From positions 930,001-994,000 of the forward strand of contig NZ_CP134152.1 of assembly GCF_032164335.1 (NCBI RefSeq): DNA of 64,000 bases. The letters are read 5' to 3'. Under the pieces are notes generated by a model. It was not told where the DNA came from, did not search any database, and saw nothing but the letters and a program-made list of their open reading frames with translations. Positions 3,319-14,467 of this stretch are shown here, in pieces. This DNA is from Winslowiella toletana (lineage in GTDB: Bacteria; Pseudomonadota; Gammaproteobacteria; Enterobacterales; Enterobacteriaceae). Both the position numbers and the translations under genes were made by a program. How positions within the stretch are numbered: the first letter of the stretch is position 1; each line of letters opens with the position of its first letter.

Positions 3319-3407
3319 CGCGTAAATATAACGCGGCAACTATGCCTGATATCACTGGCGTGGCAGCGCACAGCGCCGCAGCGTCAGCGCTTGACGGTAT
3401 ACACGAC

Positions 3408-3459
3408 GAGCCTGTCTCCATGTGTTTTGGCAATAAGCAGAGCACATCGAGGCAGGCTC
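3408..3459 (+). other. Long hairpin between pdhR and aceE
   Basis: Arms at 3408-3424 (GAGCCTGTCTCCATGTG) and 3443-3459 (CACATCGAGGCAGGCTC) pair along 17 positions with one wobble and one mismatch around an 18-base loop. No U-run follows, so this is not a classical terminator. It begins 90 bases after pdhR and ends 42 bases before aceE, where it could protect the aceE transcript or mark a processing point. Confidence 0.6.
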
Positions 3460-3501
3460 CAGACAATTCAACGTATTAGACACAGATAAGGAATACCCCC
3501 C

Positions 3502-9660: not shown

Positions 9661-9687
9661 AACGGCTCCTCAGGGAGCCGTTTTTTT
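9661..9687 (+). terminator. Rho-independent terminator after lpdA
   Basis: AACGGCTCC (9661-9669), loop TCAG, GGAGCCGTT (9674-9682), then a T-run to 9687. It ends the pdh operon and overlaps the last codons of the convergent lipoprotein gene. Confidence 0.92.
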
Positions 9688-10084
9688 ATTCTGGCTTCAA
9701 ATCTTGTAGCAAGAACTTTACGTCCCATGAGCGTTTAGTTTCTACTCTGTCAGGCGGAATAATTGTGTAAATAGTGACGTTGTACTTCACATTTGGTACA
9801 AAGTGGTAGTCGACGGGAATGCATTCACCGGGTACCACTACCTTAATTGGAAAAGGATGCTCGCGATGGCTCCATATCTCGCGCATATAGCCATCCTCAA
9901 ACCTTTTATTGATAACTATACTTAGTATTCGTGACTGGTTTTTAGCGGTTACCGACTCTTTTTTTACCTTAAAGCAGGGTTGTCCGTCTGCTTTTAGCGA
10001 GACCGTTGCCGTTCTGAATGGCAGTGGATGTATAAAGCAACCATTTAACATAAAAAAGCTTAAAGCAACGGTGACTTTCTTCAT
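9686..10084 (-). CDS. Putative periplasmic lipoprotein, candidate immunity protein
   Basis: About 132 residues. A lipoprotein signal peptide is visible: MKKVTVALSFFMLNGC with lipobox LNGC and Cys16 as lipidation site. The rest is a beta-rich domain with repeated basic residues and no enzyme motif. The start ATG at 10084 overlaps the stop codon of the upstream metallopeptidase gene (ATGA); GTG 10090 is an in-frame alternative better spaced from AGGAGA at 10096-10101. Small lipoproteins of this type next to secreted peptidases are commonly labelled putative type VI immunity lipoproteins. AT-rich relative to the surrounding core genes. The function is inferred from context only. Confidence 0.7.
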   Translation of the reverse strand: MKKVTVALSFFMLNGCFIHPLPFRTATVSLKADGQPCFKVKKESVTAKNQSRILSIVINKRFEDGYMREIWSHREHPFPIKVVVPGECIPVDYHFVPNVKYNVTIYTIIPPDRVETKRSWDVKFLLQDLKPE

Positions 10085-10638
10085 TTCCACAAGGTTCTCC
10101 TGTCGGCAGGATCGTTTAGAAAATATATCAATACGCTTTGATATTTGTTAAGCAGGTCTGGCCCTATTAGTCCGCTAAAATACTTACCATCATTCCATTT
10201 GTTAAAGCCTAAATTTATAAGAATATAGTAGTCGGCAATTATCGATGCTTGCTGCTCCATAGGAAAGTCAGCAAGGGTATAATAAGGGGGTAAAGAATAT
10301 TTGTATTCAACCGCCCAGCTTATCAGACCGCGAATTTTTACATTTACATCCATATGGTGCTGCCAGACATGAGCCATCTCATGGATAAATAACCATTGCT
10401 CTCTTGATTTACTCTCTGAGTAGTCATCTTGATAAAGTGATGTAGGATAGTACATCTCGCCATTTGGCGTAACTGCAGTATCTTTATTTTGCAAACCAAA
10501 TGGAAAATAACTCCCGTGATGTACCCTCACACGATTGTATTCAATGGCAGTTTTAAATATCGACTTAGCCATTTCTAACTCACCCCGAGTCAGATGTCTG
10601 GAAGATCCTTCTTCGATAATCATCTTCTTTATCTCCAT
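10081..10638 (-). CDS. Vgr-related HExxH metallopeptidase-like protein, candidate effector
   Basis: 185 residues. It contains a gluzincin-like zinc motif HEMAHVWQHH (residues 86-95) and a downstream EQQASIIADYY (128-138) that could give the third metal ligand. The arrangement (an N-terminal TRGELEMAKSIF, then YNRVRVH, VTPNGEMYYP, HEMAHVWQ, EQQA) is what I recognise from proteins annotated vgr-related or Rhs-associated putative peptidases. No signal peptide. ATG 10638 has a weak ribosome-binding site; ATG 10623 has GGAG nine bases upstream and may be the real start. AT-rich, translationally coupled to the lipoprotein gene. A toxin role is inference. Confidence 0.65.
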   Translation of the reverse strand: MEIKKMIIEEGSSRHLTRGELEMAKSIFKTAIEYNRVRVHHGSYFPFGLQNKDTAVTPNGEMYYPTSLYQDDYSESKSREQWLFIHEMAHVWQHHMDVNVKIRGLISWAVEYKYSLPPYYTLADFPMEQQASIIADYYILINLGFNKWNDGKYFSGLIGPDLLNKYQSVLIYFLNDPADRRTLWK

Positions 10639-10811: not shown

Positions 10812-13505
10812 TTAAAACCACTGGCCGAACTTACGCATATACAGCTGTTTCATGCCCTGGCTCAGCAGACAGTATCCCAGCAGAGTTGCCAGTAACCATG
10901 GGAAATAGCTTAACGGTAAAGCTTGCAGGCCAAACCATGAGTTAATCGGTGAGAATGGCAGACCTATGCCGATAATCACCACCAGCAGAGTGGTCAGCAT
11001 AATGGGCCATGTGGCACGGGTCTGGATAAACGGAATCTTCTGGGTGCGCAACATATGCACCACCAACGTCTGCGACAGTAATCCTTCAATAAACCAGCCG
11101 GACTGGAACAGCGCCTGATGATCAACATTGTTGGCACCAAAGATGTACCACATCAGTGCGAAGGTGGAGATATCAAACACTGATGAGGTTGGCCCCATCC
11201 ACAGCATGAAACGACCAATGTTTTTGGCGTCCCATTTGCGTGGTTTACGAACGAACTCCTTATCCATTTTATCCCATGGCAGTGCCAGTTGGGAGATATC
11301 GTAAATCAGGTTTTGCAGCAGCAGCTGAATCGCCAGCATCGGTAAAAAAGGAATAAATGCGCTGGCCACCAGAATCGAGAACACGTTACCGAAATTGGAA
11401 CTGGCGGTAATATTGAGATACTTGATGATATTGCCAAAGGTCTGGCGACCCACCAGTACCCCTTGTTCCAGCACCATCAGGCTTTTTTCCAGCAGAATAA
11501 TATCTGCGGACTCTTTAGCGATATCCGTGGCGCTGTCGACGGAAATACCGACATCCGCTGCCCGTAACGCTGCCGCATCATTAATGCCGTCGCCGAGAAA
11601 ACCAACGGTATGACCGTTTTTCTGCAGCAACGTCACGACGCGCTCTTTTTGTGACGGCGTCAGTTTGGCAAAGATAGTGTGCAGTTCTATCCGCGGCTTC
11701 AGTTGCTCATCATCTAACTGTTCAATCTCATCGCCCAGCATTGGCACACCCGCATCAACGCCAAGATCGCGGCAGATTTTGGCGGTGATCAGCGGGTTAT
11801 CGCCAGTAAGAATTTTAACCTGTACGCCATTGTGTTGCAGGGCCTGAATCGCCGCGGCGGCACTCTCTTTCGCCGGGTCGAGGAAGGTCAGCATGCCGCA
11901 CAGGGTTAAATCACGCTCATCATCAATCTTCAGGCGCTGATACCAGTTGTTATGCTCCATGGTGCGGGTCGCCACCAGCAACACACGATAACCTTGCTGA
12001 TTGAGCTCGGCTGCGCGTTGAGTGATCTCCTCACGCCACGCTGGCGTCATTTCCTCAACCTTGCCGTTAAGACTAAGGTGAGTGGTGATTGCCAGCATCT
12101 CTTCCAGCGCACCTTTGCAGATCAGCTGATGCTGACCCTGCTCATTACTGACGGTGACGGAGAGGCGACGACGGGTAAAATCAAACGGCAGTTCATCGAC
12201 TTTGCGATAGTTGCGCGGCAGATCCTGACGATTACGCGCAAATTCCAGCACCGCGCGGTCCATCAGATTTTTTAGTCCGCTCTGGTGGTAACTGTTCAGC
12301 CAGGCCAGATCAAGTACCTGTCGGCTGGGACGTCCCTGTACATCCAGGTGCTGCTCCAGGGCAATATGATCCTGGGTCAGAGTGCCGGTTTTATCAGTGC
12401 ACAGTACATCCATTGCGCCAAAGTTCTGGATCGCATTCAGGCGTTTAACCACCACTTTACGGCGTGCCATCGCCATCGCACCTTTCGCGAGATTGGTGCT
12501 GACGATCATCGGCAGCATTTCCGGGGTTAAGCCTACTGCCACCGCTACCGCAAACAGTGCCGCATCCAGCCAGTCGCCTTTGGTCATGCCGTTAATCACA
12601 AATACGATCGGCACCATAATGAACATAAAGCGGATCAGCAGCCAGCTGACGCTGTTCACTCCACGGTCAAAGGACGTGGGTGCGCGTTTACCGACAATGT
12701 TTTTTGCCAGCGAGCCAAACCAGCTCTGATTTCCGGTCGCTACCACCACCGCAGTGGCGTGGCCACTGACGACATTGGTGCCCATCAGGCAGACATTTGG
12801 CAAGCCGGGCAGGGCACCTTCACCAATTTCATGCGCAGTTTGTGGTTGATCGTTAAGACAAAATTTCTCCACAGGCAAGGCTTCGCCGGTCAGCGCCGCC
12901 TGGCTGACCAGCAGATCCTGCGATTCAATCAGTTTGATATCGGCTGGAATAATATCGCCTGCTGATATTGAAATAATGTCGCCCGGTACCAGCTGTTGCT
13001 GATTGACGTACATCCACTGCGGAGTGGAATTATCAGCGTGACGACGGCGAGTGGTCACTTGCGTGCGAACCAGTGATTTCAGCGCATCCGCCGCTTTATT
13101 AGTGCGAAACTCCTGCCAGAAACGCAGCAGGCCGCTCAGCCCAATCATTACTGACATAATGATCACGCCAGTCAGATCGGTTTCTTCACCCTGCTGAGCA
13201 GGTAACCAGTAGTCGGTGAAGAAACTGATGCTGGCGAGACCCATCAGCACAAAAATAAACGGATTTTTAAACGCCATCAGTAACTGAATTAGCGCGTGTG
13301 GGGCTTTCTCCTGCGCCACCTGGTTTAGACCAAATTGCTCAAGACGGACTTCGGCCTGCTGGCTGGTTAATCCCTGTTGACTGGTGTTAAGAGTGGCAAA
13401 GGTGCTGTCAATGCTGACCTGCGCCTCGTTGGCAATTGGCCAGCTTTTAGTTTGATACTTTTTCTGGCTGCGCGCTTGTTGCGCCATATCGATCATCTGA
13501 GTCAT
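10812..13505 (-). CDS. mgtB: Mg2+-importing P-type ATPase, MgtB type
   Basis: P3B-type ATPase that imports Mg2+ into the cytoplasm across the inner membrane. 897 residues. The phosphorylation motif CTDKTGTLT, the LTGEALPVE actuator motif and the hinge GDGINDAAALRAADVGISVD are intact. The proline of the usual GDGINDAP is replaced by alanine. Segments such as PHALIQLL, TDYWLPAQQGEETDLTGV and the C-terminus KFGQWF match Salmonella MgtB more closely than MgtA. The ATG at 13505 is followed by other in-frame ATGs, so the start is approximate. No mgtC or mgtR lies nearby. A structured leader with a small ORF and terminator precedes it. Confidence 0.92.
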   Translation of the reverse strand: MTQMIDMAQQARSQKKYQTKSWPIANEAQVSIDSTFATLNTSQQGLTSQQAEVRLEQFGLNQVAQEKAPHALIQLLMAFKNPFIFVLMGLASISFFTDYWLPAQQGEETDLTGVIIMSVMIGLSGLLRFWQEFRTNKAADALKSLVRTQVTTRRRHADNSTPQWMYVNQQQLVPGDIISISAGDIIPADIKLIESQDLLVSQAALTGEALPVEKFCLNDQPQTAHEIGEGALPGLPNVCLMGTNVVSGHATAVVVATGNQSWFGSLAKNIVGKRAPTSFDRGVNSVSWLLIRFMFIMVPIVFVINGMTKGDWLDAALFAVAVAVGLTPEMLPMIVSTNLAKGAMAMARRKVVVKRLNAIQNFGAMDVLCTDKTGTLTQDHIALEQHLDVQGRPSRQVLDLAWLNSYHQSGLKNLMDRAVLEFARNRQDLPRNYRKVDELPFDFTRRRLSVTVSNEQGQHQLICKGALEEMLAITTHLSLNGKVEEMTPAWREEITQRAAELNQQGYRVLLVATRTMEHNNWYQRLKIDDERDLTLCGMLTFLDPAKESAAAAIQALQHNGVQVKILTGDNPLITAKICRDLGVDAGVPMLGDEIEQLDDEQLKPRIELHTIFAKLTPSQKERVVTLLQKNGHTVGFLGDGINDAAALRAADVGISVDSATDIAKESADIILLEKSLMVLEQGVLVGRQTFGNIIKYLNITASSNFGNVFSILVASAFIPFLPMLAIQLLLQNLIYDISQLALPWDKMDKEFVRKPRKWDAKNIGRFMLWMGPTSSVFDISTFALMWYIFGANNVDHQALFQSGWFIEGLLSQTLVVHMLRTQKIPFIQTRATWPIMLTTLLVVIIGIGLPFSPINSWFGLQALPLSYFPWLLATLLGYCLLSQGMKQLYMRKFGQWF

Positions 13506-13561: not shown

Positions 13562-13619
13562 AAAAAAATATGGCGTTGCAGGTGGGGAAAGAGCTAGCTC
13601 ACTACTCCCACGCAACGCG
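13562..13619 (-). terminator. Attenuator-type terminator in the mgtB leader
   Basis: On the mgtB strand, CGCGTTGCGTGGGAG (13619-13605) can pair with CCCACCTGCAACGC (13586-13573) through GCGTTGC/GCAACGC and GTGGG/CCCAC with a 2-base bulge. Seven consecutive U residues (13568-13562) follow soon after. It ends 56 bases before the mgtB start codon and its 5' arm lies inside the leader ORF. Confidence 0.8.
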
Positions 13620-13650
13620 TATTACGCTGCGTACTGGGGTGTTCGTCCAT
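13594..13650 (-). CDS. mgtB leader peptide (MgtL-like)
   Basis: An 18-codon ORF, MDEHPSTQRNTRCVGVVS, starts at ATG 13650 with an excellent ribosome-binding site (TAAGGAG, 5 bases before the ATG) and ends at TAG 13594-13596. It lies 88 bases upstream of mgtB. The acidic, proline-containing start (M-D-E-H-P) resembles the E. coli/Salmonella mgtA leader peptide MgtL (MEPDPTP...), whose early codons destabilise ribosomes when Mg2+ is low. Codons 12-15 form the 5' arm of the downstream terminator. Translation is inferred from the Shine-Dalgarno sequence and the RNA architecture, not from protein homology. Confidence 0.65.
   Translation of the reverse strand: MDEHPSTQRNTRCVGVVS
13610..13632 (-). 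promoter_or_regulatory. Candidate antiterminator hairpin in the mgtB leader
   Basis: On the mgtB strand, ACGCAGCG (13632-13625) can pair with CGC-GT-TGCGT (13619-13610) around a TAATA loop. This sequesters the same bases that make the 5' arm of the terminator, so the two hairpins are mutually exclusive. The upstream arm covers leader codons 7-9. Confidence 0.55.
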
Positions 13651-13663
13651 GGTAACTCCTTAA

Positions 13664-13680
13664 TTATCACCGGGTGATAA
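13664..13680 (-). other. Inverted repeat just before the leader-ORF ribosome-binding site
   Basis: TTATCAC-CGG-GTGATAA, a perfect 7-base stem with a 3-base loop, ends a few bases before the Shine-Dalgarno sequence of the mgtB leader ORF. It may shape leader translation or be a regulator site. Confidence 0.5.
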
Positions 13681-14065
13681 TAAGCTTAAAAACCTGAATA
13701 ACAGGATCGATAACAGGCTGCTGTGCAGCAAAGGCGCAGCAGAAAACCGGCAGGGCTTCAGCCCGGAGGGAAAAGGGTATGGAAAAAAATCAGCATGATA
13801 AATACTCGTCTGTTTACAGGTTATCAAAGCAGACGAGCCGGAGGGATCGCTGCTTGCCAGGGTGGCAAGCAACAGGCTTGCCTTAATTAGATCGGTAACT
13901 GTCCAAAAAAGGTTTCTCCACAATAATTCGCGGGACGAACTATACTTCCGCCCCCGCAGGCTGTAAACCACGCTTTCTCAACCAAAGCTCAACGTCCAGC
14001 TTTTAATCTGTTAAGCGTCTGAAGGTTATCAGTTTGTTGAACTATGCATTTATCTCATTAGAGAA
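13681..14065 (-). promoter_or_regulatory. Structured region upstream of mgtB; promoter not pinned down
   Basis: No credible gene in this stretch. It holds several more perfect hairpins: GGGCT/AGCCC (13753-13764), CTCGTCTG/CAGACGAG (13805-13812 and 13830-13837) and GCTTGCCA/TGGCAAGC (13852-13870). If transcription starts beyond them, the mgtB leader is about 400 bases long and highly folded. TATAGT at 13944-13939 is a possible -10. I found no convincing PhoP box repeat. Confidence 0.4.
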
Positions 14066-14467
14066 TTATCTGCCGGATCCGGCCTTGTTGTCATCAACCC
14101 GGTGGGTGAGAGAGTGTTTCGACTCAACTTCGTGATTGATGCGGTACAGTTCAGAGATATTCAGATTGGGATGCAGTTCTCTGATGCGTACAGACCAGTC
14201 TTCAATATTTTCATCCTTACGCTGTGCATAATCACCGGGCGTGGCCGAACTGAATATTTGCTGAAATGCCTGAGCGTCACGGGACTGATATCTTTCGGGC
14301 CGGAAATATTGCCATGAGGTGGCGAGTCCCTCTGCCGCTGGCGGCGCCAGAGTCGCAGGACTTTGCGTCACTGTTAACAGGTTATGAGTTATTGTACGGA
14401 TAGCAGGGGGCGCAGTCTGGCTGAGGCTGGATTGGGAAGTGGTGACAATTGCCGGTGCGATTTTCAT
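14066..14467 (-). CDS. Hypothetical protein with Ser/Thr/Pro-rich N-terminus
   Basis: 133 residues that I do not recognise. The first 45 residues are rich in Ser, Thr, Pro and Ala with no Asp or Glu, and Ile3 follows MK: MKIAPAIVTTSQSSLSQT. The C-terminal part is charged and probably helical (ENIEDWSVRIRELHPNLN, then LYRINHEVESKH). No signal peptide or membrane segment. The ATG is preceded by AAGGATCTGATCA, a good ribosome-binding site. An acid-free, Ser/Pro-rich N-terminus is typical of type III secretion substrates, but no hrp box is seen upstream. The ORF being real is likely; secretion is speculation. Confidence 0.5.
   Translation of the reverse strand: MKIAPAIVTTSQSSLSQTAPPAIRTITHNLLTVTQSPATLAPPAAEGLATSWQYFRPERYQSRDAQAFQQIFSSATPGDYAQRKDENIEDWSVRIRELHPNLNISELYRINHEVESKHSLTHRVDDNKAGSGR

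Follow-up and report, generated by a model that had tools for sequence, protein, structure and literature searches.

The window, a stretch of 64,000 nucleotides from Winslowiella toletana (contig NZ_CP134152.1, positions 930,001 to 994,000), carries on its minus strand an mgtB gene with its ATG at 13505, preceded by a predicted leader that stacks three leader genes, mgtM, mgtP, and mgtQ (Table 1). The gene is the sole full-length match to the 897-aa MgtB in its own genome, the remaining matches being partial (25-42% identity). Among the matches listed, genomes with two MgtB matches have one at 64-68% identity and the other at 54-57%; we read these pairs as mgtB and mgtA types, respectively, which would place the window gene on the mgtB side. 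The closest named genome is that of Winslowiella iniecta (94%).

Table 1. Position of mgtB and of the elements of its leader in the window
Feature	Position	Strand	Basis
PhoP-box-like direct repeat CGTTGA-GCTTT-GGTTGA	13978..13994	-	loosened pattern; 33 nt before the -10
Predicted promoter TTTACA-17-TATAGT	13939..13967	-	promoter prediction
mgtM leader ORF, UUG start, MDSYRSN	13883..13906	-	match to mgtC-mgtB loci
Three-arm element GGCAAGC / GCTTGCC / GGCAAGC, adjoining mgtM	13852..13882	-	sequence
mgtP leader ORF MLIFFHTLFPPG	13758..13796	-	LFPP match to mgtC-mgtB loci
Shine-Dalgarno AAGGAG of mgtQ	13656..13661	-	sequence
mgtQ-type leader ORF MDEHPSTQRNTRCVGVVS, stop included	13594..13650	-	sequence, locus counts, profile searches
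Arm 1, codons 7-9	13624..13632	-	folding, 23-sequence alignment
Arm 2, partner of arm 1 or arm 3	13606..13618	-	folding, alignment
Arm 3, 3' strand of the 2:3 hairpin	13573..13587	-	folding, alignment, shuffles
End of arm 3 plus 3' flank CGCCATATT, with complementarity to arm 4	13567..13575	-	duplex test
U7 run, possible intrinsic terminator tail	13562..13568	-	sequence, hairpin ranking
mgtB, Mg2+-translocating P-type ATPase, 897 aa	10812..13505	-	TIGR01524
Arm 4 in the window, mgtB codons 6-8, GATATGGCG	13482..13490	-	duplex test

For comparison, mgtB upstream regions were taken from Erwiniaceae loci and, for part of the mgtB matches listed, from whole genomes, and 121 mgtB loci were reduced to 108 distinct ones before ORF counts. 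Left out were one locus whose start was not found (L081), two mgtB-type loci whose start was not reliably placed (L145 and L146), five of unclear mgtB type (L170-L174), and six copies with identical upstream sequence. Upstream sequence was covered to 1300 nt in the locus counts, and thus mgtM is undercounted at loci with mgtC.

The upstream half of the leader contains a UUG-started MDS ORF next to a three-arm element, as expected for mgtM, and an LFPP ORF corresponding to mgtP. The three-arm element allows two exclusive hairpins, and its 6-mer was present in 61 of 65 loci with mgtM versus 449 of 1300 shuffles; the LFPP ORF lies upstream of mgtC in 34/34 mgtC-mgtB loci among the matches listed. 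The mgtM-mgtP attenuators of the mgtCBR leader (PMC3641672, RF02887) share these features, namely an MDS peptide with UUG start, an LFPP peptide, a three-arm element behind mgtM, and a PhoP-type promoter; Salmonella mgtM, too, begins with UUG (PMC6908480). Unlike in the mgtCBR leader, mgtM and mgtP directly precede mgtB in the window, and a second copy precedes a detached mgtC. The Rfam model RF02887 (mgtC_leader) matched at 13839-13930 with 23.4 bits, not reaching the cut-off of 48; this was the best match of the genome (E 0.06). Sub-threshold matches were also obtained in 10 of 14 control genomes, thus the support from Rfam is weak, and at the cut-off the model matched none of 12 loci of relatives.

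The PhoP-box consensus, and the finding that a directly oriented box at 33-nt spacing works in Salmonella, come from PMC3335776. In a loosened form, the pattern occurred in 23 of 51 loci with mgtM versus 3 of 1020 shuffles. All 23 loci were mgtC-less; the pattern was absent from 9/9 mgtC-containing loci tested and did not turn up upstream of the detached mgtC in W. toletana. Since the repeat of the window lies 33 nt from the -10, the mRNA most likely starts near 13930. The initial annotation depended on a 5' end not lying downstream of 13650: coherently, the start predicted from the promoter and the PhoP-box-like site (13994-13939) is upstream of it, with mgtM and mgtP in between.

The third ORF, which the initial annotation described as well initiated and 18 codons long, indeed has its ATG at 13650, a Shine-Dalgarno, 18 sense codons, and a stop at 13596-13594, directly upstream of mgtB. 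It begins with MDEHP, and thus carries acidic residues within the first five codons (D2, E3) and a nearby proline (P5). An ORF of this kind, between mgtC and mgtB of the mgtCBRU operon, is the Salmonella mgtQ (PMC8092293, also for the Salmonella features that follow). The two have in common a short ORF with a strong Shine-Dalgarno just before mgtB, early acidic residues with a proline, and the alternative pairings 1:2 and 2:3, to which a candidate 3:4 pairing may be added. They differ in length (18 codons in the window, not 8), in the proline (5, not exactly 4), and in the acidic residues (D2/E3, not D2/E5); furthermore, the ORF of the window extends through arm 2, arm 4 lies in codons 6-8 of mgtB, a U7 run stands behind arm 3, and no mgtC lies ahead.

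Among the matches listed, an acidic/proline ORF with a Shine-Dalgarno was found 80-260 nt before mgtB in 74 of 108 loci, versus 17 of 5400 shuffled regions. At loci with mgtC upstream, mgtQ was present in 33 of 34, sited between mgtC and mgtB (among the matches listed), and four of these 33 ORFs have 8 codons with D2, P4, and E5 (MDIPE...), as Salmonella mgtQ does (PMC8092293). The search pattern missed L042, where the ORF has lost its proline.

A profile, R1, was built from 23 Erwiniaceae-type mgtQ copies. It gave a single strong match in the W. toletana genome (1.8e-29; the next at 0.002) and matched 26 of 296 relatives, 11 of which contain training loci. Held-out copies were located before mgtB in 7 of the 26 matched genomes, four of them inside the mgtC-mgtB interval (G061 9e-11, G048 6.7e-8, G076 2.3e-7, and G204 5.4e-5, the E-values being rough) and three elsewhere (G068, G052, and G121); the matches in G204, G068, and G052 span only about 30 bases. 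In G192, G521, and G231, no mgtB or mgtC match lay within the 2 kb fetched. The locus assignment covers the matches other than those of G025, G075, G130, G535, and G544 and the second of G019.

By these comparisons, the ORF of the window is an mgtQ orthologue. The independently evolved attenuator considered in the initial annotation is not supported by the comparison with the mgtC-mgtB loci and the profile matches there: the ORF is homologous to MgtQ, a family to which that annotation had not referred. The MgtL-like label holds in so far as an acidic/proline leader precedes a Mg2+ P-type ATPase. MgtL of mgtA also has early acidic and proline codons, with an expected destabilization of the ribosome at low Mg2+ (PMC11282234), but the gene here is mgtB-type and MDEHP lacks the EPDP motif; the MgtL identity was set aside on these two features, rather than on a direct comparison with the MgtL sequence. 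The proposed conservation of the D/E/P start is borne out, as an acidic/proline start is present in relatives across genera. By analogy with Salmonella, the mgtQ-type ORF of the window probably senses low magnesium. Copies of mgtQ are named in Erwinia tasmaniensis, two Yersinia, and Serratia proteamaculans in PMC8092293, which also suggests that mgtQ goes with mgtB; the loci reported here extend its range well past these few species.

At the window locus no mgtC lies upstream of mgtB, so mgtQ does not have its usual place between the two genes. The mgtC gene (NF011912) is about 0.69 Mb away, on the minus strand (G000:C1:1635481-1636173; L175 / L065), and has its own mgtM-mgtP copy, so that this leader is present twice in the genome. 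Thus, the operon was split, each half retaining a leader. Leaders were read on both sides in six genomes (G000, G023, G303, G104, G392, and G454), and at the mgtC side only in G319 and G207. An mgtM-like start without mgtP was seen by eye at the detached mgtC of G019 and of G031, and neither mgtM nor mgtP accompanies the mgtC genes of G352 and G259, which are more distant. Among eight genomes searched, mgtC was present in three and absent in five; remnants of the gene sought in mgtC-less loci gave one weak match (L077, 1.6e-4). In the open-licence literature, judged on titles or the start of abstracts, we did not find a description of an mgtC-mgtB split; PMC2650801 suggests that the mgtC genes of Salmonella and Yersinia were possibly acquired separately. 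These observations suggest that a set of leader-peptide switches can outlive its operon, two copies allowing both separated genes to keep it.

Loss of mgtC had other outcomes as well. Among the matches listed for the 108 loci, 12 mgtC-less mgtB loci have mgtM and mgtP without a recognised mgtQ (L075, L078, L079, L080, L087, L101, L116, L119, L126, L148, L158, and L160), by its gene content a different outcome of the loss; one of them, L101, has an MKEPP ORF without a recognised Shine-Dalgarno. A further 16 mgtC-less loci, again among the matches listed for the 108, have none of the three leader genes. Both groups would agree with mgtQ being a functionless remainder of the old operon. We consider this explanation very improbable, as the start, the Shine-Dalgarno, the acidic/proline N-terminus, and the arms of mgtQ are maintained across genera.

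The initial annotation placed two hairpins at mgtQ, and both are located as claimed and share bases. In the early hairpin, 13632-13624 pairs with 13618-13610 (9 pairs), and the second hairpin runs from 13618 to 13573 (-23.3 kcal/mol at 30 C); since both use 13618-13610, they are mutually exclusive. The stability of the whole 116-nt stretch is ordinary (z = -0.84; 36 of 200 shuffles equal or better), and that of the second hairpin is above chance (z = -3.48; 1/200). Across the 23 aligned loci, hairpin 2:3 reaches -17.5 to -25.0 kcal/mol in all, with z < -1.5 in 22. In the same 23 sequences, 94.9% of the cells of 1:2 are paired, in line with the alternative pairing of MgtQ, and 97.5% of those of 2:3, a level attained in 0 of 500 shuffles. 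The stems are thus conserved, as the initial annotation had anticipated, but the covariation that it expected of both hairpins is lacking in 1:2 (0 pairs with changes on both sides, no excess over shuffles) and weak in 2:3 (1 such pair, attained in 34/500 shuffles). With such high pairing and almost no double-sided changes, the arms are backed by conservation and hardly by covariation.

Arm 3 can also pair with the start of mgtB. When the whole mgtQ region was paired with the mgtB start in RNAduplex, this broad test was negative (mean z of -0.34, with 6 of 62 loci at 5% or better). When cognate pairs were compared with swapped ones, 9 of the 10 groups had the stronger arm 3/mgtB-start duplex in the cognate pair, whichever way the swap was made (Wilcoxon p = 0.0029 for both, a value that is not pre-planned, the comparison having been designed after the broad test with hand-chosen groups). 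Groups X and K each fail one of the two comparisons, and L010, L041, and L108 are among the loci where the cognate duplex is weaker than the mean over swapped starts. In the window, the cognate duplex (-14.8 kcal/mol) is better than every pairing with the 21 mgtB start regions taken from other groups. In 20 of 23 loci the best duplex extends as far as the mgtB start codon; L002 and L047 belong to these, and there it additionally covers the mgtB Shine-Dalgarno. In L108 it begins at the end of the start codon and runs onward, and in the window and L001 it stays within mgtB codons 6-8, off the Shine-Dalgarno. When arm 3 is freed, the narrow mgtB start region closes by >2 kcal/mol in 11 of 23 loci, does not do so in the window (-0.3) or L001 (0.1), and opens in L108 (-2.9) and L003 (-1.3). 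With the start region extended to +24, the closing is 1.8 in the window and 8.3 in L001. The cognate complementarity between arm 3 and the mgtB start favours translational control of the MgtQ type; in the window, a predicted 3:4 pairing may mask the mgtB initiation region.

The second hairpin is followed by CATA and then by U7 (13568-13562), and in the initial annotation it was a terminator: 2:3 with U7 would end transcription, 1:2 would be the antiterminator, and ribosome drop-off at low Mg2+ would let 1:2 form, so that mgtB is transcribed. Both elements are in place, and among the hairpins that precede runs of at least seven T in the window (14 such runs on the two strands), this one is second in strength. 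A spacer of 4 nt is long for an intrinsic terminator. A simple terminator scan did not list the hairpin with its U7, which falls outside the limits of the scan (loop 3-8, spacer 0-2). Only 4 of 23 aligned loci have a U7 at a distance of 4 nt from arm 3, namely the window, L001 (W. iniecta), L002 (W. arboricola), and L047 (same genus), all of which keep it although the spacer differs (CATA or ACTC). In two Tatumella loci (L010 and L041) the U7 stands 7 nt behind arm 3 and may have been gained separately, and the remaining 17 have U runs of 1-5. Thus, the terminator is not a shared feature of the family, in which the complementarity of arm 3 to the mgtB start is more widespread; intrinsic termination would at most have been added locally, and may be functional in the lineage of the window. 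L002 and L047 retain a helix that covers both the Shine-Dalgarno and the start of mgtB, which accords badly with 1:2 acting purely as an ON state, and overall we regard a transcription attenuator of this kind as rather unlikely.

We therefore prefer, with fair though not high confidence, to see here an mgtQ orthologue with its RNA switch at a split mgtC-mgtB operon, acting mainly on translation as MgtQ does. Homology, gene order, the arms, and the cognate complementarity of arm 3 with mgtB are observed in the sequences; the low Mg2+ signal, the direction, and the mainly translational control would be as in Salmonella. A single transcript, probably PhoP-dependent, would carry mgtM, mgtP, mgtQ, and then mgtB, without mgtC. 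At low Mg2+, or with slow decoding, a ribosome slowed or destabilized at MDEHP would occupy arm 1; 2:3 would then form and keep arm 3 off the mgtB initiation region, and mgtB would be translated. If Pro5 occupies the P site, the downstream 12-15 nt covered by a ribosome (PMC3641672) extend to about 13626-13621, over arm 1. When mgtQ is translated fast or not at all, 1:2 would form, leaving arm 3 available for pairing with mgtB. The U7 on hairpin 2:3, present in the window and the three relatives nearest to it, may add a premature transcription stop. In PMC8092293, 2:3 is the ON state of the Salmonella scheme, thus the initial annotation, with 1:2 as ON, proposed the reverse direction; a functional U7 terminator would make 2:3 the OFF state, opposite in sign to the MgtQ scheme.

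The hairpins could instead set the loading of Rho behind the ribosome on mgtQ, as at mgtA/mgtL. Rho-dependent control is known for the mgtA leader (PMC11282234 and PMC3641672), and a long U run is missing from the majority of the 23 aligned loci, but according to PMC8092293 Salmonella MgtQ works on translation and not on transcription, which makes this alternative improbable here.

Beyond translational control by mgtQ, we tentatively propose, as a minority view, that in the Winslowiella lineage the inherited MgtQ switch is turning into an intrinsic attenuator, with L002 and L047 as intermediates and the window and L001 as the end state. It is conceivable, at a similarly low level of confidence, that the intermediates combine a start-masking helix with U7 and that the end state has lost the part of the helix over the start codon. 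Just as speculatively, this conversion would have occurred in a three-uORF leader after the operon split and the leader duplication. If the U7 works, the sister species would represent successive natural steps in which one and the same uORF passes from controlling translation to controlling transcription.

Other minus-strand features were recorded in the window. Upstream of the mgtB promoter lies a 133-aa ORF (14066-14467) with no Pfam match over the cut-off. Two ORFs occupy 9686-10638, between lpd (named by eye) and mgtB: one encodes a DUF7480 protein, and the other has a HEMAH metallopeptidase-like motif and a weak eCIS_core match below the cut-off. Finally, the tp2 sRNA (Rfam RF02030) was identified at 3381-3497 with 65.6 bits.
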